Source: a virus
Reading direction: 5' to 3' (one strand)
Length of the DNA: 29,638 nt
Virus record (IMG/VR): IMGVR_UViG_3300025889_000659
Location: 1-29,638 of that record
Both the position numbers and the translations under genes were made by a program. Positions 1,951 to 29,638 of this stretch are shown in pieces. Below the pieces are notes generated by a model. The model saw only the letters and a program-made list of their open reading frames with translations. It was not told the DNA's origin and ran no database searches. How positions within the stretch are numbered: position 1 is the stretch's first letter; every line of letters starts with the position of its first letter.

Positions 1951-2714
1951 CGCTGATTGTGCGGCCCGGCTTCAATGGGATGACTGATGCTGACGCGATT
2001 GCGTACGTCAATGCAGTCGAGGCCGCTGATGGTCAGTTGCTGGAGTTTGCCGTAGGCAAAGCCATCAACGATTTTGTGGTGGGCTGCAAACTGGATGGGA
2101 TCTGGAGCGCGATCAAGGCAAGCTGCATTCTTGCTGGCGCTCGGACACTGGCCGGAGCTTTGGTGCCTTTGGCCGGACCTGCGCCAACCAACAACAATTT
2201 TGTCTCTGGTGATTACAACCGGAAGACGGGGCTAGTGGGAGACGGAAGTACGAAGTATCTAAATACTAACTACGCCGCTTCGTCTAACACAAATTATTTA
2301 CAGAACACACACGTTTCAGTGCATCGTGTTACAACGGGTGCATCGGGATCTTTGCTAGGAGTTGGCGGTCCAAGCAACGCTTTATTGATATTTTGGAATG
2401 GCAGTTGGCTTATGAGAAGCCTAGCCGGTGGTGGCGGCGTGGGAGGAGGTGATGTAGTTAATCTTCTCGGGACATCACGCGCTAGCTCCTCTAGCTATAC
2501 ATATAGGTTTGGGGGGAGCAGCGGGACCGTAGCTACTACATCGACCGCAAACACAGAAAATGTTTTTGTGTTTGCTAGAAATGAAACCGTTACCACGTCG
2601 CAGTTCTCATCGTCGCGAATAGACTTTTACTCCATTGGCGAGGCGCTAGACCTCGCCCTCCTTGATACCCGCGTTACTACCTTGATCACCGCCTTCGGAG
2701 CCGCTATACCATGA
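1947..2714 (+). CDS. phage adhesin, concanavalin-like beta-sheet protein
   Basis: This 255-residue protein follows a strong GGAGG site. Its N-terminal 60 residues form a helix-rich cap (TDADAIAYVNAVEAADGQ), followed by PLAGPAPTNNNFVSGDYNRKTG and GDGSTKYLNTNYAASS, a pattern recurrent in phage tail proteins with a lectin-like jelly roll. It ends with IDFYSIGEALDLALLDTRV, a helix typical of this group, in which it follows the last strand. No signal peptide or enzyme motif is visible. It lies between two other adhesin-type genes with unrelated folds, each behind the same junction motif, so it is probably one of several exchangeable surface-binding proteins of the tail. Receptor unknown. Confidence 0.7.
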   Translation: MTLIVRPGFNGMTDADAIAYVNAVEAADGQLLEFAVGKAINDFVVGCKLDGIWSAIKASCILAGARTLAGALVPLAGPAPTNNNFVSGDYNRKTGLVGDGSTKYLNTNYAASSNTNYLQNTHVSVHRVTTGASGSLLGVGGPSNALLIFWNGSWLMRSLAGGGGVGGGDVVNLLGTSRASSSSYTYRFGGSSGTVATTSTANTENVFVFARNETVTTSQFSSSRIDFYSIGEALDLALLDTRVTTLITAFGAAIP

Positions 2715-2755
2715 CACCCACCGAAAATTTTAACACTACGAGGAGGGCTGAGTAA
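2711..2755 (+). CDS. tiny linking ORF (14 residues)
   Basis: ATG at 2711 overlaps the stop of the preceding gene (ATGA) and its TAA overlaps the next start (TAATG at 2753-2757). The peptide would be MTPTENFNTTRRAE. Its end shares nucleotide sequence and frame with the end of the 46-residue gene at 1810. It may serve as a coupling leader or be a worn-down copy of that gene. Confidence 0.35.
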   Translation: MTPTENFNTTRRAE

Positions 2756-2757
2756 TG
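2734..2757 (+). repeat. adhesin junction motif, copy 2
   Basis: CACTACGA runs directly into GGAGGGCTGAGTA and the ATG at 2755, again starting 21 bases before the ATG as in copy 1. The downstream gene has a completely different fold from the one behind copy 1. Confidence 0.6.
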
Positions 2758-3582
2758 CCTATTTATGTACCGGGAAGACTAATCTTGGCCAAAGGTATTG
2801 CCACGCCTGCCATCGGCGGCGATGAAATTTTTGACATAAATGTCAGCGGCACCAACTATCGCGTACACAAATTTACTGCTGTTGGCGTTTCTTCTTTTAC
2901 AATGTATATCGACATGAATGTTGAATATCTGGTTGTTGGTGGTGGTGGTGCCGGTGGCCGCTACGGAGCCGGTGGTGGTGCCGGTGGACTTTTAACCAAT
3001 CTTGGATCCGCTTTAATCAATGTTACCAAAGGATATCATGAAATACGTGTAGGCGCTGGCGGATTAGGTATTGATGTTAACGTCATACCAGGAGGCAATG
3101 GAGGCAATAGTAGTGCGTTTGGTCTTACGGCAGTAGGCGGCGGCGGCGGTGCTAGCAGAACAAGTGTCGGTGGCCAAAACGGTGGTTCGGGCGGCGGCGG
3201 GTCAAACAACATTGGTGATCCCACTAGACGAGCTGCTGGCCTAGGCACTGCCGGACAAGGCAACAATGGAGGCGCGGGCAATTCAAGCACTAACAATGGC
3301 GGGGCCGGTGGTGGTGGCGCAGGAAGCGTTGGGCTTGGATCAACTTCAGATGGGGTAACAGGCGGGAGCGGAGGCAATGGTATTCTCAATTCAATTACTG
3401 GAATCAATGTCGGCTACGCAGGTGGTGGCGGGGGCGCTGGCAGCAGTAGTAGTGGTAGCAGCACATCTGGAGGAGGCAGTGGATCTAGTGGAGCTGCCAA
3501 TACAGGTGGAGGCGGCGGCAGTGATACCGCTACGTCCTATGGCGGCGGCTCCGGCATCGTCATTGTGAGGTACGTGATATGA
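2755..3582 (+). CDS. glycine-rich phage adhesin
   Basis: This 275-residue protein has a strong GAGGAGG site. Residues 1-60 are a beta-rich head, and VEYLVVGGGGAGG near residue 62 opens a long glycine-rich domain with dozens of GG, GGG and GGGG runs separated by Ser, Asn and Ala. It closes with the signature GGGSGIVIVRYVI. This layout is common in phage receptor-binding proteins; in the T-even gp38 family such runs form packed polyglycine-II helices. Repeated GGT/GGC codons at about 2937-2997 form near-perfect DNA repeats that could favour recombination. It is probably a tail tip adhesin, with receptor unknown. Confidence 0.75.
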   Translation: MPIYVPGRLILAKGIATPAIGGDEIFDINVSGTNYRVHKFTAVGVSSFTMYIDMNVEYLVVGGGGAGGRYGAGGGAGGLLTNLGSALINVTKGYHEIRVGAGGLGIDVNVIPGGNGGNSSAFGLTAVGGGGGASRTSVGGQNGGSGGGGSNNIGDPTRRAAGLGTAGQGNNGGAGNSSTNNGGAGGGGAGSVGLGSTSDGVTGGSGGNGILNSITGINVGYAGGGGGAGSSSSGSSTSGGGSGSSGAANTGGGGGSDTATSYGGGSGIVIVRYVI

Positions 3583-3635
3583 ACCACCTCACACAAGACA
3601 CTGCCACTACGATTGATTTGGAGGTGATGCAATGA
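3579..3635 (+). CDS. tiny linking ORF (18 residues)
   Basis: ATG at 3579 overlaps the stop of the glycine-rich gene (ATGA), and its TGA overlaps the start at 3632 (ATGA). The peptide would be MNHLTQDTATTIDLEVMQ. It shares the in-frame ACT ACG segment and GGAGG site with the small ORFs at 1810 and 2711. It is either a coupling leader or a remnant. Confidence 0.35.
   Translation: MNHLTQDTATTIDLEVMQ
3605..3634 (+). repeat. adhesin junction motif, copy 3
   Basis: CACTACGA is followed after seven bases by GGAGGTGATGCA and the ATG at 3632. This copy is six bases longer than the other two, but the GGAGGTGA segment matches copy 1. Confidence 0.55.
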
Positions 3636-4306
3636 GCTGGCTGATTACGCCTCAACTCAAAGTGCTCAATGGCGTTCCCCAGGAGAGCATCCTTGGCATC
3701 CCGTTTGGTGGCGGCTACTTTGCTGGCTACATCAGTCACACTGCTGACGGCAACCCGACCCATGCGTTGATTGTTGCGCCACGAGCGACTGGTGCAACAG
3801 GGACGGGATACACGCAGACCACTAGCCTGCGATGGAAAACAACGCAAACAGATACAACGGGAACTGCTAGCACATTTGATGGCGTCTCAAACACAAGTGC
3901 AATCACAGCCGCTGGAATCAATGACCATCCTGCCGCTAAATTTTGTACAGATTTGACAATAGGAGGCTTTGCTGATTGGTATTTGCCATCACGACTAGAG
4001 CTTGACATTGCTTATTTTAACCTAAAGCCTACAACGGCTTCCAATAACATTAGTTTTCCTGCTGGCGGCAATGCTTACTCTGTGCCCAAGCGAGTCACTT
4101 CTAACTCAGCCTCATATCCTGCGCAGACCGCTGTAGCTGACTTTACGACTACGGCAGAAAGGTTTGAACCAATTAATCATTGGTCTTCTACAACAAGCAA
4201 TGCAACCCAGGCTAATAATGCTATCTTTAGCACTGGGTGGAACCCGGCAAATAATAATAAAGACTCGTTGCTCGCTGTCCGCGCCTTCCGCCGCATAGCC
4301 CTCTAA
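3632..4306 (+). CDS. DUF1566 / Lcl-like C-type-lectin-fold adhesin
   Basis: This 224-residue protein has a GGAGGTGA site. It shows the DUF1566 (Lcl C-terminal) pattern in order: FGGGYFAGYI near residue 25, an ADGNPTHALIVAP segment, GGFADWYLPSRLELD near residues 110-124, WSSTTS near 184, and the closing VRAFRRIAL. Proteins with this fold bind sugars or collagen, and phages use them as tail adhesins. It is the third adhesin in a row behind the same junction motif. Asn codons are frequent near its end (ANNAIF, PANNNKD), but no reverse transcriptase or template repeat is seen in the window. Binding partner unknown. Confidence 0.75.
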   Translation: MSWLITPQLKVLNGVPQESILGIPFGGGYFAGYISHTADGNPTHALIVAPRATGATGTGYTQTTSLRWKTTQTDTTGTASTFDGVSNTSAITAAGINDHPAAKFCTDLTIGGFADWYLPSRLELDIAYFNLKPTTASNNISFPAGGNAYSVPKRVTSNSASYPAQTAVADFTTTAERFEPINHWSSTTSNATQANNAIFSTGWNPANNNKDSLLAVRAFRRIAL

Positions 4307-4342
4307 GCCACACAAGTGTCCCCGTTTTCGGCGGGCCCTGAA

Positions 4343-4564
4343 ATGGCGCGGCAGTGCTACCGTAACGACATGAACAATCAGATCATCACCGCCTCTGGTC
4401 AAGTGCCACCTGCGATTAAGCAGCCGACCACGACGCTTGCTGCGTTCTCCATTGGACCCGCCTGCGACCTAGCCAAGCTGGATGACGAGTTTCGCGCATG
4501 GTTGAAAACACCGTGGCGCTCAGACGAGATCGTGGCACCGCGTGGACAAAAGTTGTATACTTGA
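4343..4564 (+). CDS. small hypothetical protein
   Basis: The frame opens at a GTG at 4316 and offers ATG codons at 4343 and 4370; none has a convincing ribosome binding site, so the start is uncertain. The conserved-looking part runs from NNQIITASGQVPPAIKQP to GQKLYT. It has an acidic helix (CDLAKLDDEFRAWLKTPW) and no known motif. It follows the adhesin cluster on the same strand. A TTGTATACT sequence overlaps its stop codon and also occurs near 25697. Confidence 0.45.
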   Translation: MARQCYRNDMNNQIITASGQVPPAIKQPTTTLAAFSIGPACDLAKLDDEFRAWLKTPWRSDEIVAPRGQKLYT

Positions 4565-4707
4565 GTCGTCCCCGCTCTGCTTCGGCATCGGGCTCAACAC
4601 CCCTCATGCTTAGCTCCGGGACGCCGGATGACGCACAAACAGAGGGGTCACTATGACAGAGCCCAAGCCCCTGTGCGTTCTTGAGACGTTTCACGCTTGG
4701 GCCATCT

Positions 4708-4783
4708 CACCCAGTCCGAGACAATTGGACAGTACGGCTACTGCTGCTGCAGGGCGATGTGGGTTCGAATCCCACCTGGGTGA
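4708..4783 (+). tRNA. tRNA-like sequence, possibly degenerate; candidate phage attachment site
   Basis: The outer arms are perfect: seven acceptor pairs (4708-4714 with 4776-4782), then a five-pair T arm GTGGG-TTCGAAT-CCCAC at 4759-4775. Total length is 76, as in a normal tRNA. The inner part is poor: no seven-base anticodon loop with U33 and a five-pair stem fits, so no anticodon can be assigned. It lies about 200 bases from the 3' end of the integrase gene. Integrases often use the 3' half of a host tRNA gene as target, so this could be attP rather than a working tRNA. An ORF read through it (from 4653) gives the residues usually seen when a tRNA is translated. Confidence 0.4.
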
Positions 4784-4804
4784 TTCTATCTTTACCAGAG
4801 TCTC

Positions 4805-4942
4805 TCAGTTCCGGTTAGGCGAATCCTGCTTGACCGGAACACAGTTCGGCACTTTTCGGCCGTCTTTCATCTTCATGCCGATAGCTTGATACCCCTCCCA
4901 GCAAGCCTGAGCCAGCTTTTTGTCGGCCATGCGTGGGGCCAT
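4805..4942 (-). CDS. small conserved-type phage protein (45 residues)
   Basis: On the minus strand an ATG at 4942 (or 4930, four codons later) opens a 45-residue frame with the core WEGYQAIGMKMKDGRKVPNCVPVK. This GMKMK-x-GR-x-VPNCVP pattern recurs in small proteins of many aquatic phages, so the gene is probably real although very short. It lies downstream of the integrase on the same strand, 50 bases after that gene's stop, and could share its transcript. Function unknown. Confidence 0.65.
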   Translation of the reverse strand: MAPRMADKKLAQACWEGYQAIGMKMKDGRKVPNCVPVKQDSPNRN

Positions 4943-4992
4943 CGGGTTACTGAGAGAGATCTTTATCTACTATAACTGCTCCTAAAACGGCG

Positions 4993-5835
4993 TCATAGCA
5001 CAGGAATTGTATATTCTTGACTTACGCCTGCATAGTGCTTCCAGATCACTTCGGACGAATTCCCGCACCACGCCGAGATCTGAGCAATTGGGATTCCGGC
5101 TTCGAGAAAACGACTGATTGCGGTGTGGCGTAGATCGTACGGACGGTACCTCCGCTCCACGAGACCGTTAGTGTGCGCGTCGATCATACGTTCATAGAAA
5201 TAACTCTGGAACGTGTAACGGTTCCATGGGAATAGAAATTCACTTCGCGTGTCGAGTTGCGTCAGGATGTTCTGGGCGCGTTCGTTTAGCGGCACCCAAC
5301 GCTGACGGTTTGTCTTCGTACTGTTCTTGAGACCGTGGGTAAGCGTGTAGTTTCGATGGACGAGGATCTTGTTGTCCTTGATATCGTCCCATTTGAGCGC
5401 TCTAACTTCCCCAGTTCGCATCGCGGTTTGGAGCATCCATTCGGCGTACAGCGACCAGTCCGGAGATTTGTCTCGTTGCAGCGCGGTCAGCACCACGGGA
5501 ATTTTGCTCCGTGGGATCACCACGATTTCGTCCTCGCCCTGCGGCGGTTTGGGCATTCGGAAATTCGTTACCGGATTCCGTTCGAGTAATGCGACATCTT
5601 CGCTGGACGCCCAGCGGTACATCGACTTAACGTACATCGCCACGCGCCGTGCGGTTTTCGGCGGACGTTGCCCAAACACCCATGTCATGATCTGGCGTCC
5701 TTGAGTGAGGTCTGTTATCGGACAACGTTTAATCCACTTAGTTACCATGGAGTAATCGCTAGCCAAACTGGTAGCACACAAACTTACAGAACGCTCATTG
5801 CGAAACTGTTCCCAGGCAGTTACAAGATCAGTCAC
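4993..5835 (-). CDS. int: tyrosine recombinase / phage integrase
   Basis: This 280-residue protein starts at GTG. Residues 1-85 resemble the helical SAM-like core-binding domain, and residues 105-280 the catalytic domain. Visible active-site elements are Arg140 (MLQTAMRTGEVRAL), a beta-hairpin Lys near 174 (STKTNRQRWVPL), Arg236 in PYDLRHTAIS, and Tyr268 in WKHYAGVS. The box III His of the usual GH pair is Asn259 (CGNSS), and the first box II His is Tyr233; both replacements occur in some relatives, so activity is not excluded. It would catalyse integration and excision between attP and a host attB. A tRNA-like sequence beyond its 3' end is the natural attP candidate. Its presence suggests a temperate phage or temperate ancestor. 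Confidence 0.9.
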   Translation of the reverse strand: MTDLVTAWEQFRNERSVSLCATSLASDYSMVTKWIKRCPITDLTQGRQIMTWVFGQRPPKTARRVAMYVKSMYRWASSEDVALLERNPVTNFRMPKPPQGEDEIVVIPRSKIPVVLTALQRDKSPDWSLYAEWMLQTAMRTGEVRALKWDDIKDNKILVHRNYTLTHGLKNSTKTNRQRWVPLNERAQNILTQLDTRSEFLFPWNRYTFQSYFYERMIDAHTNGLVERRYRPYDLRHTAISRFLEAGIPIAQISAWCGNSSEVIWKHYAGVSQEYTIPVL

Positions 5836-6022
5836 GGGTTGTTGTCGGGGTTATCCATTATGCAGCATTGCGCTCTGATTGGCGCGACGGGGCGGAATTT
5901 ACAATACGTAAGTATTTAACTAAGCGAAATCGCCGTCAGGTTTTTTGGCGGCAAGCAATTATTAAGACAACCTTACGCGAAGGTATTCGCTGCTATGCTT
6001 GCTGTGCCTTCACATCAGTATC

Positions 6023-6157
6023 GTGGCAGTTAAAGCTAAGGCAGGTCTGAGCGGTACGGTTCGTAAAGAACCCGTTTGCCACAAGACGACGCAAGGGAAC
6101 GGGCGTGGGAGCAAGCCAAAGAGAGGGCGGAAAGCTTATCGCGGCCAAGGTCGCTGA
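6023..6157 (+). CDS. small basic conserved-type phage protein (44 residues)
   Basis: A GTG at 6023 opens a frame reading MAVKAKAGLSGTVRKEPV and ending KPKRGRKAYRGQGR. The Lys/Arg/Gly-rich sequence with TTQGNGRGS followed by GRKAYRGQG is a pattern common to short proteins of marine and freshwater phages. It is very basic and could bind nucleic acid, but this is only inferred from charge. A longer frame from 6076 overlaps it and is less likely to be used in that part. No strong ribosome binding site is visible. Confidence 0.65.
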   Translation: MAVKAKAGLSGTVRKEPVCHKTTQGNGRGSKPKRGRKAYRGQGR

Positions 6158-6180
6158 CTTCTCTACTTGTTGAATTTCTC

Positions 6181-6390
6181 ATGACTGCACCTAACTCAGA
6201 TCCTGCTCACGTTGTTTCAAGTCTTGTTGCTGAGTACACGAGGCGACGCAAAGCCAGTCTTTTGCACTCGTTTAATGCGGAGCTTAAGGAGTTCACAGAT
6301 TATTTCTCTTCTGGAGATACTGAGTCCTGGCACGATCTTTGCACTAAAGAAGGCAAGTACTGGACTTTGCAACTAAAGTTGCCGGAGTAG
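6181..6390 (+). CDS. small hypothetical protein
   Basis: This 69-residue protein starts at the ATG at 6181 (MTAPNSDPAHVVSSLVAEY). The frame is open from 6067, with a TTG at 6076, but that part lies over the basic protein at 6023-6157, so the ATG is preferred. The protein is mostly helical, with a basic patch TRRRKAS and an aromatic C-terminus (CTKEGKYWTLQLKLPE). No domain is recognised. Confidence 0.5.
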   Translation: MTAPNSDPAHVVSSLVAEYTRRRKASLLHSFNAELKEFTDYFSSGDTESWHDLCTKEGKYWTLQLKLPE

Positions 6391-6414
6391 AATTCCTTAG
6401 AGTCTCGTTACACC

Positions 6415-6666
6415 ATGGGCACTGCGGACGCACTGATGGCAAACATGCCTGACTTTGAGAGGATGAAAATCGGCCCTCGCAAGCCGTCCGCTCCTGCTCC
6501 ACAACCCGGCGAAGACCGTGGGATGACAATCGAAGAACTGCAGGAGATTTACAATCGTCTGTATCCCGGTGGTAATCCCCAGGTTCGCGACGCCTACAAG
6601 CTTCCTGGTACTAAGACGCCCGAAGCTCTGCTGGCTGAGACTCTCGGTGGTATTCTCGGCGGTTGA
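6415..6666 (+). CDS. small hypothetical protein, probably virion-associated
   Basis: This 83-residue protein has a Pro/Ala-rich middle (KPSAPAPQPGEDRG), a short helix (MTIEELQEIYNRLYPGGN) and a Gly-rich end (ETLGGILGG). Its stop is directly abutted by the stop of the minus-strand gene at 6667. Composition resembles the small proteins in the virion gene run further right. Function unknown. Confidence 0.6.
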   Translation: MGTADALMANMPDFERMKIGPRKPSAPAPQPGEDRGMTIEELQEIYNRLYPGGNPQVRDAYKLPGTKTPEALLAETLGGILGG

Positions 6667-7551
6667 TTACAGCAACGCAATCCGTTTCTCGAATTCTTTT
6701 TGCCACAAGGCGACGTAAAACTCCCAAAAGTGTTTGCATTGTCGCCTTACTTTGCTGATCTCATTGTTATCCCTAATCCGCTTCATCTCTGTAGCGGCTT
6801 CCTCCCACGTGTCTGTGCAAACGAACGGCAGCGTCCCTGCGCCGACAAACACGCCATGCCAGTAACTCGGCTCAATCTTCATCGAAGATGAGTTCTTTAA
6901 AGTTACAGGAATCGAATTAGCTTCTAACGCTTCATAGATTCTGAACGAATCGAGGATCGCACCCCCTTGTGGGCAGGGGATGAATGTGCTGGATTCCACC
7001 AGACGGGCGTACCCCTCGGCGTTAAAGTGTTTCGGATCATTGAATTTCTCAAAGATAAAAACAGGGTTCTTAGGGAAATTCTCGTTAAGTACTCGCAAGC
7101 ACTCCGAACGATCCATTTTCAGCGATCCCGCGAAGGACCAATCGAAGGCTCGCCGACCCGGAACCACAGAGGTGTTGCCGATGTACTTTTCAAAGTCTTG
7201 CTTGTAGCCAAGCCCGAAAACAAAAACCTTAGGGTGTTCGTAGTACCCAGGATGGAAGTAAGTACGAGCTGCGAATTTACAGTTCGGGTCTTCCAGGTAG
7301 AACATGGGTTCTACCAAGCACTCGTCTGAGAGCAACACAACACCGAAGGACTTTTTATCTTCTTGTAGTTGTTCGATGTAGTCGTATGAAGCGCTGGTAT
7401 TTGTGACAACAATGCACTTATCGTACGACTGTAGGTTCTTAGTAGTCTTTACAAACTTATAATTTACATCTACTCTTTGTAGCATACACTCCATCCAACT
7501 GCGGCCCCAATCGAGACCTGCCGGACCTTCCCAGACGACCGTGGGTTTCAT
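6667..7551 (-). CDS. exostosin-like glycosyltransferase
   Basis: The start chosen is MKPTVVWEGPAG at 7551, because its ATG overlaps the stop of the upstream methyltransferase (ATGA); a start at 7566 is possible. The 294-residue protein has the exostosin (GT47-like) pattern in its C-terminal half: FAGSLKMDRSECLRVL near residue 140, then RLVESSTFIPCPQGG and DSFRIYEALEANSIPVTL near 183-218, which is the donor-binding region. It would transfer a sugar from a nucleotide sugar. The acceptor could be phage protein, host surface glycan or lipid. It is translationally coupled to a methyltransferase, so the two may build or cap the same glycan. Confidence 0.75.
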   Translation of the reverse strand: MKPTVVWEGPAGLDWGRSWMECMLQRVDVNYKFVKTTKNLQSYDKCIVVTNTSASYDYIEQLQEDKKSFGVVLLSDECLVEPMFYLEDPNCKFAARTYFHPGYYEHPKVFVFGLGYKQDFEKYIGNTSVVPGRRAFDWSFAGSLKMDRSECLRVLNENFPKNPVFIFEKFNDPKHFNAEGYARLVESSTFIPCPQGGAILDSFRIYEALEANSIPVTLKNSSSMKIEPSYWHGVFVGAGTLPFVCTDTWEEAATEMKRIRDNNEISKVRRQCKHFWEFYVALWQKEFEKRIALL

Positions 7552-9267: not shown

Positions 9268-9348
9268 GCCCCTGTGATGGAACGGTAGACATACCGCACT
9301 TAAAATGCGGAGGCTTAGGCTGTACGAGTTCGAATCTCGTCGGGGGCA
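9268..9348 (+). tRNA. tRNA-Leu (anticodon UAA)
   Basis: A full cloverleaf can be drawn: a seven-pair acceptor stem (9268-9274 with 9341-9347, one G-U), D-arm region with TGGAACGGTAGAC, anticodon stem CCGCA/TGCGG with loop CTTAAAA (anticodon TAA at 9301-9303), a long class II variable arm, and T arm ACGAG-TTCGAAT-CTCGT. The discriminator is A9348 and CCA is not encoded. It reads the UUA leucine codon. Phage tRNAs commonly supplement codons that are rarer in the host. Confidence 0.95.
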
Positions 9349-10044: not shown

Positions 10045-10812
10045 GTGGCGATCTCTGTTCTTGGGACTGCGGTAGTTAATGAGCCTTATTGGCTCTACCG
10101 TATGTTTATGAGCATTGACTACCCCGTAGATAATTTTGTAGTCTTTAACAACAACGGGCGTGGGCAGATTACGGAACAGGTAGACGCGCTCAAGAGCGTT
10201 CCGCACCGGTACGTCAAGAATGTACATGTCTGTCATTTGCCAGCGAACGTCGGGTGCTCGGGTGCTTGGAACCTGATTATCAAGTGCTTTATGCAGTCCC
10301 CGCATTGGCTGATCGTCAATCACGACGTGATGTTTACGCCGGGATTTTTGGAGAAGTTAGCTAAAGAAGCTGAGAACGAAGATGTTGGCGTCGTCCACGG
10401 GGATGGTGGAGGCTGGGACATTTTTCTTCTCAAGGACTGGATGGTACAGAAGTACGGGTTGTTCGACGAGAACCTGTATCCCGCGTACTGCGAAGACATG
10501 GACTACGGGATGCGTTTTATCCACGACGACGTGAAACGTGTTCTGTCTGTCGGGGTACCGTATTACCACGGGGCAAAGACAGGGAGTTACGAGGACGGAA
10601 GCCAAACCTGGCGTTCAGAACCGGAGCTTGCCGAGTCGATTCATATAGCGCACGAGTTGAACAAGACATACCTACACGCCAAGTGGAATGAAGCTTGGCA
10701 AGGCCACGTGGACGGCGAGACGTATTCAAACCCATTCGACAACCCTTCGTTTCCTGTGTGTCTCACGACGTACAATCTGTCTTTTGTTCGTGCTAAGCAC
10801 CTTGGGTTCTGA
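10045..10812 (+). CDS. GT-A fold glycosyltransferase (GT2-like)
   Basis: This 255-residue protein starts at GTG. The N-terminus AISVLGTAVVNEPYWL and VDNFVVFNNNGRG form the nucleotide-sugar side of a GT-A fold, with ANVGCSGAWN near residue 68. IVNHDVMFTPGFL (residues 90-102) has the position of a DxD-type metal site, and CEDMDYGMRF (149-158) supplies the catalytic acidic pair typical of rhamnosyl-type GT2 enzymes. It probably adds a sugar to a phage or host surface glycan. The TGATG overlap couples it to the cysteine-cluster gene. Confidence 0.75.
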   Translation: MAISVLGTAVVNEPYWLYRMFMSIDYPVDNFVVFNNNGRGQITEQVDALKSVPHRYVKNVHVCHLPANVGCSGAWNLIIKCFMQSPHWLIVNHDVMFTPGFLEKLAKEAENEDVGVVHGDGGGWDIFLLKDWMVQKYGLFDENLYPAYCEDMDYGMRFIHDDVKRVLSVGVPYYHGAKTGSYEDGSQTWRSEPELAESIHIAHELNKTYLHAKWNEAWQGHVDGETYSNPFDNPSFPVCLTTYNLSFVRAKHLGF

Positions 10813-14319: not shown

Positions 14320-14849
14320 TGATCACTTCAACAATCGGTAACTCGGCCACGGTCGCTACCTGGCTCGCCTCGTTAGATAAATCCAACGCAGACGCATTTG
14401 CTTACTATGCCAAGAACGCTACTAGCGATATTGAGGCGTACCTTTACGCACGGTTTCTGCATCCTGCTTACGGCGGCAGCATCTCTGACCTGACCGCGTG
14501 GGTTCAAGAGAAGTATCCCAAAGTAGATCTACGTAAAGTTCTGTTAGATGAGATCGACCAAGTAAAACAAGATATCGCTAATGTACGCACCATGGTCGTT
14601 AATCAGGCGCTAGATCATGCGACTGCCGCAACTAAAATCGCGGTGCTTCAAAAAGAGCTTAGGAGTCACATTCAGGCGGTACGGGCTATTTCGGACGGTC
14701 TTGATCGCCGTGGTTTACTGCTTGCTGGCGCTGATCGCTGCCTTCGCGAACTTGTTAGCACTTTTGATGGGCAGCCCGGTATCCAAGCTCTGCTCGAAGA
14801 TTCATCTCGCCTTGTCTGGTCGACTTTAGAGAGGGAGGAGAAGTCCTAA
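14319..14849 (+). CDS. hypothetical protein, possibly terminase small subunit
   Basis: This 176-residue protein starts at the ATG at 14319, which overlaps the previous stop; a TTG one codon earlier is also in frame. It has an N-terminal helical domain (TVATWLASLDKSNADAFAYY) and a central coiled coil (RKVLLDEIDQVKQDIANVRT). The first part could be a DNA-binding domain and the coil an oligomerisation domain, the usual plan of small terminases. It is the last plus-strand gene before the minus-strand pair that precedes the large terminase. The assignment is weak. Confidence 0.5.
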   Translation: MITSTIGNSATVATWLASLDKSNADAFAYYAKNATSDIEAYLYARFLHPAYGGSISDLTAWVQEKYPKVDLRKVLLDEIDQVKQDIANVRTMVVNQALDHATAATKIAVLQKELRSHIQAVRAISDGLDRRGLLLAGADRCLRELVSTFDGQPGIQALLEDSSRLVWSTLEREEKS

Positions 14850-15928
14850 GCGACTTTCTCCATGCGTCCCAAAATAGACTCCAGCGGGCATCGGAAGATC
14901 CCCATAAAGTCGTCGTTGACGCCCAGGCTCATAACAAGCTGATTGTCTTCAACCAGAGCGCCGAACGGAAGGATTACTGCAGGCTGACACGACACGACGG
15001 ACCCCCACGAGTCTGTCCAGCGGATGATCTTACCGTGGGGATTACCCGAGAACAGAGGTTTGCGGTCGATATAAAGGAGTCTACTAAACTCTTTATCTAC
15101 GATATACGACGCTAAGTGATATACAAGAATCGGCCGTTCGGCGGTTTGCACTAAGTGCTTCCAGTGGTAGAACACAAGGAAGCCGTAACCGATGTCAATA
15201 GGCGCTGTGGAATTGAAAGTGGGAGCCCCGCCCGTGACTGAATCAAGAACATCTGTATTGACACTCAGCGGTGAGCCAGACTCGCGCTCAATAATCAGCG
15301 GACGCGTTGCGTACAGGCAGTTAAGTTCCTCGTTGTGGCTGAAGAAGCACCAGTTCTTTTCTGTTTCAGAGGGAACTTGGTTTTTGCCAATGGGTGGAAT
15401 TGCAGCGTGAACCGCATCAAAGTTTTCGTTGACGTGACATACGACTACCTTGGGTTTATGAAACAGGTTGGTTTCGTCTGAGTCATACTTACTGGCGTAC
15501 GTAGAGCCAACGAACTGAACGTAGAGTTCATCGTCCGGGCCAATGAACAAGCGTGGGTCTTCGTAACTAAGGCGGTGCGGTTTGTTTCGCAGTTTCTTAG
15601 TGCCTAAAAGCGTTTCGTCGTCAGCTAAACACCCAATGTAGATTTCAGTAGGTTTTCCGTTTAGGTAAAAATACTTCATGTCGTGCCGGAACCCAAAGGG
15701 CTCGGGCTGCGACCTCCACGCAACGTAGTAGTTGTCGTGATACTTAACTAAGCTCGGGCTGAAGTTGGCGACGGACCCGTTAGGCAAGCCTTTGGAAATT
15801 CGCGTGAAGTTACCGCCCAATGCGCGAGCTTGGCTGTAGACGTCAGTCTCACCGAGGCGTGTTCTGTCGATAGGGAGCAGAACACTGTCGTAGAACGTGG
15901 CGTAGCGCGTTGAAGTTTGTAAAGTCAT
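14846..15928 (-). CDS. GH130-like five-bladed beta-propeller glycosidase or phosphorylase
   Basis: This 360-residue minus-strand protein has beta-propeller features: FSPSLVKYHDNYYVAWRSQ near residue 57, SYEDPRLFIGPDDELYVQF near 121 with the EDPRL motif typical of GH130 mannoside phosphorylases and relatives, and later GGAPTFNSTAPIDIGYGFLVFYH and GSVVSCQPAVILPFGALV. Such enzymes act on beta-mannosides or related sugars; some are inactive binders. It lies four bases downstream of a GT4 glycosyltransferase, so both probably handle the same glycan. Its stop overlaps that of the converging plus-strand gene by three bases. Confidence 0.65.
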   Translation of the reverse strand: MTLQTSTRYATFYDSVLLPIDRTRLGETDVYSQARALGGNFTRISKGLPNGSVANFSPSLVKYHDNYYVAWRSQPEPFGFRHDMKYFYLNGKPTEIYIGCLADDETLLGTKKLRNKPHRLSYEDPRLFIGPDDELYVQFVGSTYASKYDSDETNLFHKPKVVVCHVNENFDAVHAAIPPIGKNQVPSETEKNWCFFSHNEELNCLYATRPLIIERESGSPLSVNTDVLDSVTGGAPTFNSTAPIDIGYGFLVFYHWKHLVQTAERPILVYHLASYIVDKEFSRLLYIDRKPLFSGNPHGKIIRWTDSWGSVVSCQPAVILPFGALVEDNQLVMSLGVNDDFMGIFRCPLESILGRMEKVA

Positions 15929-15932
15929 CAGT

Positions 15933-17135
15933 TCACTCCGCGAGTTCGGTTACTGCTTTGCTGAATGCTTTAGCGACTGATTCCCATCGGTACTCAGAGC
16001 GTTGCGTTACGGCGTAGCACGTTTCGGAAATCTCGTTGTACAACTCCTTGTCTGTGTAAAGGTCGGTCAGGAGTTGTGCCGCGTGGGAGGTGTCGACTAA
16101 CCCACGCTCGGCCCCAAGATCTTTCTCCGTGACCCACGTTGCGATATCGGCGAGCAATCCGGCTTCCTCCCAGATGTCTTTACAAGCTGTGTGATTGGGG
16201 ACAACTTGAGGTTTCTTGCAGCTCGCGTGTTCGAAGCTAACTAAACCCCATCCTTCGCCTTCGGCTGTATTGATGCCGACATCACATGCGTTGTAGATGT
16301 CGTTAAGGAATTCGTCTGGGGGTGCGGCAAGATAGTTCAGATTCTCGCTGGTGAGGATCAGTCGTTTACTTCCGTCAAGCCCGCGTTTTTCCATCTCCCT
16401 CTTAAAGAGAGGCATGACGTCCCAACCCATATCCTTGACGCCCATGTGCAAATACAACACGGTGTCGGGCTTATCGACGGCGAACTCAGCAAACGCCTGA
16501 ATTGTTAGGTCGATGCGTTTGCGAGGCTGGTTCCTATTGGCATTCAGGACGATAAATTTGTCAGTCGGCAGTCCAAGGCGCCCACGGGCTTCGTTTTTGT
16601 CGATTGGGTAGAACTTGCCCGTGTCAACCCCGTGGGGGAGGATCCCGATTTCGGTGTTCTCAATTTTGTGCCGCAGGATCCGTCGCGCAGATCCTTCCGT
16701 AAAGGTGACTGCCAGATCCCAATGCGGGATGTTCTTGAGCATGTCTTGGTAGTACCACTCGCTGTCTACCGGGAAATATGCAACGAATTTGAAATCCTGC
16801 TGCTGTTTCATGAACTGGCAGCGCTCCCAGAACTGATTTAGGATCCAGAGATCGTTGAGGCAGATGATTACGTCAGGTTTCTCTCGATCTAAAATCTCAG
16901 GGATCCTGCCGATACCAAAACGATCTGACGAACCGCCACTGCAAGTCGGGTAGATCTTGAAAGGGTAATCGTGAGGATCTCCTGTGTAGTTAATGCCGTA
17001 AACAACGATTTCGTGGTCGTCCTTTAGGCGATCGAGGACACTGTGGGTGACACGGGCAAATCCAGTGTTACTACAAGCGTCTCCATACCACAGGATTTTT
17101 GCCACGGATTTGTCGATAGGTTCAAGTACAATCAA
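15933..17135 (-). CDS. GT4-family glycosyltransferase (GT-B fold)
   Basis: This 400-residue protein has the GT-B plan. The N-terminal domain begins at AKILWYGDACSNTGFARVTH. The C-terminal domain contains NANRNQPRKRIDLTIQAF (Arg201 and Lys206 contact the nucleotide phosphates) and the EX7E motif Glu294-Glu302 (GEGWGLVSFEHASCKKPQV). It transfers a sugar from a nucleotide sugar with retention. The longest frame starts at a TTG at 17135; a GTG at 17105 just before AKILWYGD is an alternative. It is co-transcribed with the GH130-like gene and divergent from the terminase. Confidence 0.85.
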   Translation of the reverse strand: MIVLEPIDKSVAKILWYGDACSNTGFARVTHSVLDRLKDDHEIVVYGINYTGDPHDYPFKIYPTCSGGSSDRFGIGRIPEILDREKPDVIICLNDLWILNQFWERCQFMKQQQDFKFVAYFPVDSEWYYQDMLKNIPHWDLAVTFTEGSARRILRHKIENTEIGILPHGVDTGKFYPIDKNEARGRLGLPTDKFIVLNANRNQPRKRIDLTIQAFAEFAVDKPDTVLYLHMGVKDMGWDVMPLFKREMEKRGLDGSKRLILTSENLNYLAAPPDEFLNDIYNACDVGINTAEGEGWGLVSFEHASCKKPQVVPNHTACKDIWEEAGLLADIATWVTEKDLGAERGLVDTSHAAQLLTDLYTDKELYNEISETCYAVTQRSEYRWESVAKAFSKAVTELAE

Positions 17136-17161
17136 TATACCAGCACTGCCAGCTTAGTACC

Positions 17162-19696
17162 ATGCCGAGTCGGGAAAGTTTTGCGTATCGGCGCCGCGCT
17201 CAGTTTCAGGCTGAGCAAGCGATGGACAATAGCGGTAGCGGACAAATTGATACTATTTATTCTAAAGCTGCTCACGATTTTCATACGTTCTGTACACTCT
17301 TAGATAAACCCCCTGCCCAGCATATGCTGGAGTGGCACAGACATCTTATTACTGGTAAGAGCAATAGGTATCTCTTAGATATAGCTGGCCCTAACGTTGA
17401 TATCCTGAGTCCTCGCGGTAGTGCAAAATCTACAGCTTTAAACTTGTTTACAGCTTGGTGTATCGGCAGACATACAGCGGCACAACGTCCGCTTCAGATT
17501 ATTTACGTTTCGTACAACATCGCCACCGCTATTCCTAAGAGTCGAATTATTAAACAGATCGTTGACAGCCTTACGTTTAAGCGGATCTTCCCGACGTGTC
17601 GGCTGAAACCGGGAATGCAGTCCGATATCGGTTGGTCTATCGACTTTGACTACGCCAACATTCCCCGCGTGGGTGACGAAGAGTTCACCCTACGTGCGGC
17701 GGGCCTTCGCGGTTCCATTACGTCAAAACGGGCGCACTTGTGCCTCACAGGTGATACGCTTGTGACGACCGATCAAGGTCTGCGTCCTATTTCAGAGTTA
17801 TATGAACACCCAGAACGATACCGTGTCGCTGTCCGCAACCAGAGGACAGGTGACGTTGACTGGAGCTACCTGGGAGCAGTTACACGACGTTGTGCCCACG
17901 AAGTTGTTCGAATTAGAACAAGCTGTGGTCGTGAAATTTCCGCAACTCCCGAGCACCCTTTCCTTACGTCAGCGCGAGGGTATCAACGGGCGGGAGATAT
18001 TGATCGGGGGGAAACCCTTGTCGGATTACCCGCCGTGTTGGCAGATTTTCCGTTGTTTGGGCTGTGGGGGGACGAAGAAGGATACGCAGCGAATCTGCTC
18101 AACGTGCTGGTCGAAGCTGGGGAAGTTCGAAGTAGAGATCAAGTGTTTCGTCTGCGGGAACTTCTTTTCAGTGATGTCGTCTCGACTGACTCAGCGGCTA
18201 TCGACGGGTCACAAGAGGTTGGCGTGTTCGCGGCAGTGTGCGAAGGACGCTCAGCGTACGTTGAGGCCGAAAATTTGTCCTCAGTGCGGGGACGTGTTTC
18301 GCCCTCTTTCGCACTTGACTCAGTATTGCTCAAAAGTCTGCTCGGATCGTGGTCACTCGCAAGAGATGACTGGTATCCGAAACTCGAATTATCGGCACGG
18401 GAACTACATCGGGGATTTCAAAAAGCTACGGAAGATTGTTCTACATCGGGACAATTTGACTTGCGCCGGATGCGGTACGAAGGAGATGAAGTCAGCTATA
18501 AGCTCAGAGTCGTCCCGAACGAATCTTTGTGCGCATCACATCGATCACGACAAGAGCAACAACGTTCTGGAGAACTTGATTACTTTGTGTCGACAGTGCC
18601 ATGTGGCGCATCATCAGATTACGGACAAGGCTGGCAGGCCCTCACCGTTTCCCGAGTTGAAAGAACTCGCTGTGAGTCGGAGTACGTCTACGATTTAGAG
18701 ACAGAACACCCCGATCATAACTTTATTGCTAATGGGTTTGTTGTTAGCAACTGTATAGTTGATGACCCTATTAAGTCATCTACAGATATTCGAAACCCTG
18801 CTATTCGCGAGGAACAAAATAATAACTGGAGTAGCGTTATCGCTCCCATTATCTTTGAGGGCGGACGTTCTATTTGTCTGGGTACGAGATTCCACCCTTT
18901 AGATATTCACAAAACTATGTTTGTCCCTGAGAAGGGGTGGAAGCAGGTTGTGCAGGAGGCTATTACGTATGACGACCACGGGCAGCCTGTGAGCTATTGG
19001 CCCGAGCAGTGGTCGACAGAATATCTGCTGCAGCAGAAAGAGCTTGATCCGGTCGCTTTTGCGTTCCAATATCAGCAGCAGCCGGTTATGACTTCTGATC
19101 TGGTTGTCTCTCCGGATCTCTTGATTAAGGGCGAGGTCGTAACTGAGTTCGATACGTTGGCACTGGGCGTGGATCTTTCGGCGAGCCGTAACGAGACCAG
19201 CGACTACACAGCTTTCGTGCTAGGCGGTCGACTCAAAGACAAGTACTACATCATTGATTCCCATCAGTGCCGCTCTATCGGCAACTTAGAGAAGATAGAT
19301 CTACTGTGTGACATGTTGTTAGAGTGGGGTATCCTAGGTAAGGAAGGTGACACGTATCTTCCTACGTACTCTACAGTAACGCTGGTTGTGGAGTCGGTTG
19401 CGTATCAAGCGTCGCTGGCAGCGGACATTCGGCGCGTCCTCTTGAACGAGCGTGGACTCAGCAACATCCACATCCACGAAGTTAAAGGATTCAGGGGCGA
19501 CAAGATCGCGCGGTTCAGGGGCACGTTGGGTCTGCTGGAAAACAAGAAAGTTACATTCAACAGATATCGAAAGTTTGACGCGCTGTTTGAGCAGTTGATC
19601 AACGTGGGTTCTACGTCTCATGACGATATGCTCGATGCCTACACATGGTTGATTACATTCCTACAGCGGCGTGGGAACTTCTCGATCGAGTATTGA
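17162..19696 (+). CDS. terminase large subunit, interrupted in frame by an intein
   Basis: The precursor is 844 residues; removing the 337-residue intein leaves 507, a normal large terminase. Walker A is SPRGSAKST (83-91). Walker B is rebuilt by splicing: AHL (191-193) joins CIVDD (531-535), so the intein splits the ATPase active site and blocks packaging until removed. The RuvC-like nuclease domain shows Asp671 (GVDLSAS), Glu744 (VVESVAY) and Asp821-Asp822 (HDDMLDAY). The enzyme cuts concatemers and pumps DNA through the portal. A second gene lies in the +1 frame inside the intein part. The ATG at 17162 gives a natural N-terminus. Confidence 0.95.
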   Translation: MPSRESFAYRRRAQFQAEQAMDNSGSGQIDTIYSKAAHDFHTFCTLLDKPPAQHMLEWHRHLITGKSNRYLLDIAGPNVDILSPRGSAKSTALNLFTAWCIGRHTAAQRPLQIIYVSYNIATAIPKSRIIKQIVDSLTFKRIFPTCRLKPGMQSDIGWSIDFDYANIPRVGDEEFTLRAAGLRGSITSKRAHLCLTGDTLVTTDQGLRPISELYEHPERYRVAVRNQRTGDVDWSYLGAVTRRCAHEVVRIRTSCGREISATPEHPFLTSARGYQRAGDIDRGETLVGLPAVLADFPLFGLWGDEEGYAANLLNVLVEAGEVRSRDQVFRLRELLFSDVVSTDSAAIDGSQEVGVFAAVCEGRSAYVEAENLSSVRGRVSPSFALDSVLLKSLLGSWSLARDDWYPKLELSARELHRGFQKATEDCSTSGQFDLRRMRYEGDEVSYKLRVVPNESLCASHRSRQEQQRSGELDYFVSTVPCGASSDYGQGWQALTVSRVERTRCESEYVYDLETEHPDHNFIANGFVVSNCIVDDPIKSSTDIRNPAIREEQNNNWSSVIAPIIFEGGRSICLGTRFHPLDIHKTMFVPEKGWKQVVQEAITYDDHGQPVSYWPEQWSTEYLLQQKELDPVAFAFQYQQQPVMTSDLVVSPDLLIKGEVVTEFDTLALGVDLSASRNETSDYTAFVLGGRLKDKYYIIDSHQCRSIGNLEKIDLLCDMLLEWGILGKEGDTYLPTYSTVTLVVESVAYQASLAADIRRVLLNERGLSNIHIHEVKGFRGDKIARFRGTLGLLENKKVTFNRYRKFDALFEQLINVGSTSHDDMLDAYTWLITFLQRRGNFSIEY
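17741..18751 (+). mobile_element. intein in the terminase Walker B motif
   Basis: The element has 337 residues. Block A is CLTGDTLVTT with Cys1. Block B is GREISATPEHPFL with Thr69 and His72. Block F is YDLETEHPDHNFIANG. Block G is FVVSN with Asn337, followed by extein Cys+1. The penultimate residue is Ser instead of the usual His, which is tolerated in some inteins. Residues about 95-315 show no LAGLIDADG or HNH motif in this frame and look like filler; the same bases encode an HNH nuclease in the +1 frame. Splicing should be autocatalytic. Insertion into the most conserved ATPase motif is typical of inteins in large terminases. Confidence 0.93.
18018..18698 (+). CDS. HNH homing-type endonuclease in the +1 frame inside the intein
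   Basis: The frame is open from an ATG at 17802 (298 codons), but the recognisable protein begins near a TTG at 18018 that has GGGGGGA five bases upstream, giving 226 residues. In the 298-residue numbering, zinc-finger Cys sets are 85/88/99/102, 115/118/142/146 and 159/162/176/180. After NSNYRHG comes the HNH domain: Cys221/Cys224, His245-His246, Asp248-His249, Asn254 and Asn258, then Cys263/Cys266-His267 (LCRQCHVAHH). This is a complete metal-dependent nickase or nuclease fold of the homing type. The gene starts where block B ends and its TAG lies within block F (bases of Asp-Leu), so it exactly occupies the usual nuclease slot but out of frame. It would need its own translation start. Confidence 0.88.
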   Translation: MSDYPPCWQIFRCLGCGGTKKDTQRICSTCWSKLGKFEVEIKCFVCGNFFSVMSSRLTQRLSTGHKRLACSRQCAKDAQRTLRPKICPQCGDVFRPLSHLTQYCSKVCSDRGHSQEMTGIRNSNYRHGNYIGDFKKLRKIVLHRDNLTCAGCGTKEMKSAISSESSRTNLCAHHIDHDKSNNVLENLITLCRQCHVAHHQITDKAGRPSPFPELKELAVSRSTSTI

Positions 19697-29142: not shown

Positions 29143-29225
29143 TAACGCTACAAATGCAACGCTTTTTTGAGTTACTTACGCAAATCTAGTTATATTGAGT
29201 AGGTAGTTTTTCGGAGGTTGACGCT

Positions 29226-29638
29226 TTGTTCGTCGATTGGCGCTCATAGGCTGAGAGGCTTATGTAGTAATCGGGTGAATTGCTGGAACCCTTCTAACAG
29301 CACACAAATCAGGATCCGTCCTGAGAACCTTGACAATTAGAGCCAGCGATAGCTGGAAGTATTTATTGATTCGACTTGTGCAGTCGGATCGAGGGAATCA
29401 GCAGCGAAGCCGCGTGGGAACATGCGGAACGTTCAGAGACTAGATCGTACAATCCAGAACGGATTATGAGGATCCAAGAGCGCCCGACACCCTACACATG
29501 AGGGTGGTGATATAGTCCGAGCTGCATCGATAGCAAAGATGCAGAACTAAGGGATAAAGAGCCCTTAGGGTAACACAACTGCGACAATGATTTTCCGAAG
29601 CTGCTCGGCGCAGAACTCTACCGTCCGCACCCTGCGTA
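29226..29638 (+). CDS. intron-split gene, 5' part only (product unidentified)
   Basis: A TTG at 29226 has GGAGG eight bases upstream and reads MFVDWR before meeting a TAG inside the intron. After the intron, bases 29584-29638 read NDFPKLLGAELYRPHPA in a frame that joins cleanly if the 5' exon ends at T29244 and the intron ends at G29583, giving R-Y-N across the junction. The gene runs off the window. The coherent downstream sequence and the strong ribosome site support a real gene, probably structural by position, perhaps the capsid protein, but nothing visible proves this. Exact splice points are not certain. Confidence 0.55.
29245..29583 (+). ncRNA. group I self-splicing intron without an internal ORF
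   Basis: The catalytic core is recognisable: AATCAGCAGCGAAGCC before a hairpin at 29410-29427 (P6 region), TTCAGAGACTAGA at 29432-29444 (5' strand of P7), a six-pair P8-like hairpin (29488-29493 with 29501-29506), and GATATAGTCC at 29509-29518 (3' strand of P7). Two further perfect seven-pair hairpins follow (29522-29544 and 29547-29568), which fit P9 elements. GGGTGAATTGCTGGAACCC near 29273 is a typical 5' core segment of phage group I introns. The intron is about 340 bases long and encodes no homing endonuclease. Both ends are estimates; P1 could not be settled. Confidence 0.85.

Follow-up and report, generated by a model that had tools for sequence, protein, structure and literature searches.

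A terminase (TerL) gene in viral DNA raised the question of how one stretch of sequence can keep an intein-bearing precursor open and, in the +1 frame of the same intein, hold a complete HNH endonuclease gene. The locus lies in a stretch of 29,638 nucleotides (IMG/VR record IMGVR_UViG_3300025889_000659, positions 1 to 29,638), the whole of which is called the window below. The answer that we consider likely is a mobile TerL intein with its homing endonuclease encoded not by an in-frame domain but by a zinc-finger HNH gene of its own that overlaps the intein in the +1 frame. In this reading, splicing and homing are inferred, as are the cutting of the empty site and the production of the HNH as a separate protein. 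The computation shows that both frames are coding, at a fixed +1 offset and with stop avoidance; that empty sites exist and the distribution is patchy; that the element has spread across lineages; and that the HNH gene decays while the intein frame is kept.

Organization of the terminase locus

The TerL frame is stop-free from 17120 to 19696 and contains the following features.

17162-19696, + strand: TerL ORF, 844 aa (phrog_38, 2.5e-65; Pfam Terminase_6C, 8.4e-6)
17162-17740, + strand: TerL N-extein, 193 aa, ATPase part (ORF; phrog_4758 terminase, 5.2e-20)
17741-18751, + strand: intein, 337 aa (Pfam Intein_splicing, E = 5.7e-15; TIGR01445 intein_Nterm, 1.1e-12; TIGR01443 intein_Cterm, 1.6e-5)
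17802-18698, + strand: HNH endonuclease gene, 298 aa, ATG to TAG, +1 frame, wholly within the intein (PHROG phrog_1271 HNH endonuclease, 1.4e-18)
17801-18031, + strand: dual-coded region, intein codons 21-97, covering the N-terminal splicing part with block B and the HNH N-terminal domain (both frames conserved)
18032-18628, + strand: HNH-driven region, intein codons 98-296, with zinc fingers and HNH core in +1 and the intein frame open, mostly as a disordered loop (wobble divergence, pLDDT of the intein model)
18054-18602, + strand: three zinc-binding CxxC..CxxC/CxxxC modules and the CxxC pairs of the HNH core, HNH frame (translation, alignment)
18752-19696, + strand: TerL C-extein, 314 aa, starting with C-IVDDPIK (Walker B), nuclease domain after it (phrog_38, Terminase_6C)

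The N-extein ends with ...TSKRAHL, immediately 5' of Walker B. The intein opens with Cys1 (CLTGDT), carries TPEHPF as block B and VYDLETEHPDHNFIANGFVVSN as blocks F/G, and is followed by Cys+1. Blocks A, B, F and G were invariant or almost so in the close-group alignment. The block A nucleophile and N-terminal motif were represented by invariant C1, G4, D5 and T6, the TxxH motif of block B by T69-P-E-H72 (T69 and H72 invariant in 14 sequences), and block G by the terminal Asn followed by Cys (N337/C338, invariant). The usual, though not obligatory, penultimate His was absent from the window's intein, where Ser precedes the terminal Asn; this residue is Ser, Leu or Gly across the close group, and the HN pair is present in L046, L050, Gordonia phage Clown and others. 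By its motifs, profiles and empty homologues the whole insert is an intein; protein splicing itself is inferred from the motifs and the fold.

The HNH frame runs from stop to stop over 17766-18698. The earlier note had described, at 17741-18751, a complete HNH protein with three Cys zinc fingers and an HNH core in the +1 frame of an intein, which held by profiles and translation. Its estimate that the two frames are open together over about 680 nt was too low, as the dual-open stretch is the entire HNH gene, 897 nt. Residues H245, H246, N254, N258, H267 and H271, together with most Cys pairs, were invariant in 21 relatives. The HMM comparison that the earlier note had proposed gave intein families in the TerL frame and HNH families in the +1 frame. 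No endonuclease domain was found in the splicing frame, which matched only intein-splicing and terminase families, and the claim that this frame has no nuclease motif of its own thus also held.

AlphaFold models were obtained for both products. The HNH protein folded well (mean pLDDT 83). The intein adopted a Hint fold with pLDDT of about 76-92 in the splicing parts and below 50 at residues 101-129, 131-237 and 259-295. In a Foldseek search the intein model matched mini-inteins, including the Ssp DnaB mini-intein (E = 2e-7). The fold search with the HNH model returned no significant PDB match (best ScoMcrA, E = 0.09), and HNH membership therefore rests on sequence profiles.

Other genes and inserts were noticed in the window. 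A group I catalytic intron lies near its right end (29224-29544, +; Rfam RF00028, 63 bits, E = 6e-14), and a tRNA-Leu gene with anticodon TAA at 9268-9348 (+). Pfam identified a family 2 glycosyltransferase gene (10045-10812, +) and the gene of a glycoside hydrolase family 130-like protein (14846-15928, −); the adjoining ORF (15933-17135, −) looked glycosyltransferase-like by eye.

Recurrence of the nested arrangement

A protein search of 50,697 phage records revealed the same nesting in Synechococcus phage S-EIV1, with 56% identity to the window in the HNH and 36% in the intein frame, and in phage Clown. Each of these two records annotates one single terminase gene. The IMG/VR scan yielded 47 viral contigs (L004 and L006-L051) with an HNH match that lies in +1 relative to a long host frame; wherever enough of the locus was present to be read, this host frame was TerL with intein motifs. 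Further scans added more divergent nested TerLs (L166, L169-L171, L187-L190, L193-L195, L197-L199, L201 and L202). Ten of these were tested. The host frame of each matched Intein_splicing, with seven scores above the curated cut-off and three below it, and the +1 frame of each matched HNH families. An earlier profile scan of genome contigs with alignment A1 found no relatives; the scan with alignment A10 recovered 12, four of them nested, in bacterial-genome contigs of Streptomyces glaucescens, Actinobacteria bacterium OV450, Fictibacillus arsenicus and a Bacteroidetes MAG.

The offset was +1 and the insertion lay just before TerL Walker B (C[IL][IV]DDP and variants) in every nested case, and the intein was exactly 337 aa long in the fifteen close-group representatives. 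The nesting is real, neither an assembly error nor chance, and dozens of phages infecting very different bacteria share this double reading.

Signs of additional inserts were seen in some of these terminases. Besides the Walker B intein, L022 (host ORF 2104-5862), L047 (1-2568), L048, L046 and L050 have a second insert with intein-like features at TerL Walker A (P-loop); it is large and LAGLIDADG-like by eye in L022 and L050, and shorter or cut in L046 and L047. The C-terminal part of TerL gave a Hint_2 match at residues 840-875 of L195 (ORF 3184-6777), an intein-like C-terminal end around residue 771 of L201, and an intein-like N-terminal start from about residue 590 of L166, so that two inteins seem to be present in some terminases.

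Stop avoidance and selection on both frames

The wobble base of the HNH codon is the first position of the intein codon, so a stop in the intein frame requires T at the HNH wobble followed by AA, AG or GA. Every NNT codon has an NNC synonym. It follows from the genetic code that each such T can be removed and the host frame kept open at no cost to a nuclease protein read in +1, which is how the two frames can coexist.

The sequences obey this rule. When the HNH protein was fixed and its synonymous codons were resampled, 15-18 intein-frame stops were expected and none was observed in any of the 15 representatives (L037, with one HNH nonsense codon, was left out). Resampling with the intein protein fixed predicted 4-9 HNH-frame stops, against none observed in the ten sequences tested. 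The 29 nested HNHs had no intein-frame stop in 4,051 aligned codons, compared with 327 in 2,937 codons of 21 freestanding relatives, which carry about 16 stops per 140 codons in the corresponding frame. Among HNH codons with a T-ending synonym, wobble T before AA, AG or GA was found in 0 of 1,686 cases in nested genes, versus 31.5% before other dinucleotides in the same genes; freestanding HNH genes had T at 40.6% of wobble positions before AA, AG or GA. The avoidance was confined to the HNH wobble bases.

Constraint beyond the absence of stops differed along the intein. At codons 21-97, divergence at the three codon positions was 0.32/0.19/0.24, as compared with 0.575 at C-extein third positions. 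Amino acid identity averaged about 61% in both frames, and in all 90 pairs the intein frame scored higher than a null with matched synonymous-difference sites. Some 77 intein codons around block B are therefore under constraint in both frames. At codons 98-296, divergence at HNH positions 1 and 2 was 0.33 and 0.26, versus 0.56 at position 3, which is as free as silent extein sites. The intein frame was only 33% identical there, near the null, with a weak excess (66 of 90 pairs). These remaining ~200 intein codons encode the HNH and a merely open intein loop; the low conservation and the structure model predict that the intein frame over most of the HNH gene is disordered filler, kept only stop-free.

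The calculations show purifying selection on each frame. The per-frame analysis of constraint across relatives, also proposed in the earlier note, thus found both frames constrained at codons 21-97 and HNH-driven evolution at 98-296. The contention that the same DNA must keep the terminase precursor open and encode a separate nuclease was supported, both constraints being measurable, with the qualification that only codons 21-97 are truly dual-coded; the freestanding state of the nuclease and its role in homing are inferred.

Mobility, empty sites and decay

An empty site, with SKRAHL joined directly to VIVDDPIK or a close variant, was found in 77 of the 80 closest TerLs. We must note that this sample comprised only the 80 TerL C-exteins most like that of the window and did not include the S-EIV1-like clade. 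Intein presence needed at least 5 changes on the extein tree. Moreover, two TerL clades were separated by a C-extein distance of 2.99 substitutions per site (0.22 within), whereas their HNHs differed by only 1.22 (0.80-0.98 within). The HNH distance is small relative to that of the exteins, indicating that the element crossed lineages after the exteins had diverged. For L022 taken alone, an AU test gave no significant conflict between HNH and extein (p = 0.38), and the case for mobility therefore rests on the distances and the empty sites. Patchy presence and spread between host-gene lineages, both hallmarks of homing elements, were thus found; cleavage of the intein-free allele is inferred. 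In the tree with freestanding HNHs, the nested ones grouped (3 changes, against a shuffled mean of 16.8). This tree is compatible with one origin of nesting, although two long-branched members could not be firmly placed.

Two intein-free TerLs, L091 3210 and L118 3064, have a Cys in place of the Val at extein position +1 (SKRAHL/CIVDDP, SKRAHL/CLIDDP), and each adjoins an intein carrier on the extein tree. These residues might be scars of precise intein loss or, equally, pre-adapted sites.

Decay affected one frame only. L037 has an HNH nonsense codon that is a mere missense in the intein frame. In L047 and L048, a 126-aa deletion leaves the intein in frame, and the HNH additionally carries a stop. 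No broken intein frame was found in any member examined. The earlier note had held that relatives in which either frame was broken by stops without consequence would refute the dual reading; such breakage was seen in the HNH frame of these three contigs and never in the intein frame, as predicted if the host gene is essential and the selfish nuclease dispensable.

Proposed mechanism

In the mechanism that we propose, the intein frame would be translated with TerL, and the intein would excise itself by means of its Hint fold; between blocks B and F, the intein frame would contribute no more than a disordered linker, which is the HNH gene read in the other frame. The nuclease would be made separately, most likely by internal initiation at the ATG at 17802. 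It would then cut intein-free terL at the empty Walker-B site, and repair would copy the whole unit in.

The ATG, at intein codon 21, was present in 12 of 15 close representatives and missing in L018, L019 and L023, in which GTG/TTG or another start would be needed. The N-terminus with Met and KSxQ was common to L046, L050 and L166. Neither a Shine-Dalgarno sequence nor a sigma-70-like promoter was found near the HNH start, and the promoter/terminator scan was empty.

Alternative explanations

The main rival for the expression step is +1 programmed frameshifting from the TerL/intein frame, giving an N-extein/intein-N/HNH fusion that would still act in homing. In its favour, no offset other than +1 was seen, the start of the open HNH frame falls between intein codons 1 and 9 in members of the close group, and some members lack the ATG. 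Nevertheless, no conserved slippery site was seen, HNH-frame stops occur just upstream in most members, and the codon-21 ATG in most representatives and the shared Met and KSxQ N-terminus argue against it. We consider frameshifting unlikely and retain internal initiation as the preferred reading. A sequencing or assembly error, in which one indel would hide an in-frame HNH domain, was named in the earlier note as a refutation and is all but excluded: a second contig (L004), dozens of independent, diverged relatives and two isolate phages share the +1 relation, and no support for an error was found. Chance overlap was rejected on the 15-18 stops expected by resampling where none exists. A group I intron as the carrier of the HNH gene was likewise rejected, with no Rfam intron match at the TerL intein locus.

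Two further rivals concern function, and both appear very unlikely. The HNH could be a packaging nuclease that aids the terminase, the intein being incidental. It lies within terL in every nested case, and in some phages packaging is aided by HNH proteins whose genes adjoin those of the terminase (Kala et al. 2014, cited in PMC12613952). However, all but three of the 80 closest TerLs lack both the intein and the nested HNH, some loci that are otherwise intact have a broken or deleted HNH, and the HNH moves across TerL lineages. Alternatively, one reading could be non-functional, either with the HNH as a relic or with the entire intein frame as a passive open frame, which would fit the HNH decay in three contigs and the poor conservation of the mid-intein frame. 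This is contradicted on the HNH side by the excess of divergence at codon position 3 and the invariant catalytic residues, and on the intein side by the (almost) invariant blocks A, B, F and G and the absence of an intein-frame stop in any member.

Comparison with known systems

The work on the ShiLan domain (PMC11855218, 2025) showed that phage genes can conceal an HNH gene in another reading frame. The ShiLan element resembles the TerL element in its zinc-finger HNH, placed out of frame in an in-frame phage-gene insertion, in its patchy spread and in the same puzzle of start codon and expression. It differs in having no intein or intron splicing domain, in its host gene and in its HNH frame, which is the third (offset 2 in Mantra) and not +1. 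With a splicing domain and an HNH in +1, the window element is not of the ShiLan type, and on the HNH tree the ShiLan HNH fell outside the main nested clade, among freestanding HNHs.

The earlier note knew of no described intein with this arrangement, a claim that cannot be certified. Our literature search, which did not cover the preprint of the ShiLan group, turned up no intein whose endonuclease lies out of frame; apart from the ShiLan paper, it returned just one genome announcement, which cites an out-of-frame HNH within a methylase. ShiLan is close prior art, and its paper cites that preprint (Gosselin/Arsenault/Gogarten, 2025; non-canonical architecture of actinobacteriophage inteins) in connection with overlapping frames in such phages, which leaves priority uncertain. 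Judging by title and citation, the preprint may describe out-of-frame endonucleases and overlap with our findings; Clown would then fall within its scope. A bolder reading, for which we see the case as evenly balanced, is that of a widespread intein class, probably with a single origin, that occupies the terminases of phages infecting cyanobacteria, actinobacteria, bacilli and other bacteria. Its homing endonuclease would have turned into an overlapping +1 gene, enabled by the general rule of cost-free stop removal at the nuclease wobble, and the class would not have been described before beyond the splicing-free ShiLan elements.

Canonical inteins of the PI-SceI and PI-PfuI type share with the TerL element the Hint blocks A, B, F and G, insertion into an essential gene at one of its conserved active-site motifs, patchy occurrence and an endonuclease between blocks B and F. 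Unlike theirs, the endonuclease of the window element is a separate +1 gene, and the in-frame B-F sequence has no nuclease motif and is predicted to be disordered. The two activities of a mobile intein are thus split by reading frame rather than by protein domain, and splicing and homing can therefore decay independently, as in L037, L047 and L048. A large conserved gene overlap governed by a simple measurable rule, the avoidance of wobble T, also provides a clean natural model in which overlapping genes and selection on two frames can be studied.

Group I introns with homing-endonuclease ORFs likewise carry the endonuclease gene inside a self-removing element without fusing it to the splicing part, whereas the TerL element would be removed at the protein level and its host frame reads on across the insert without a stop. 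Mini-inteins (Ssp DnaB mini-intein, NrdJ-1) were the best structural and sequence matches and also have a splicing domain without an in-frame nuclease; L047 and L048 appear to be true mini-intein derivatives. The TerL element differs from mini-inteins in keeping its homing nuclease in another frame. In consequence, annotation pipelines that report one terminase gene, as for S-EIV1 and Clown, miss a nuclease family, and intein surveys limited to in-frame endonucleases misclassify such elements as endonuclease-less.
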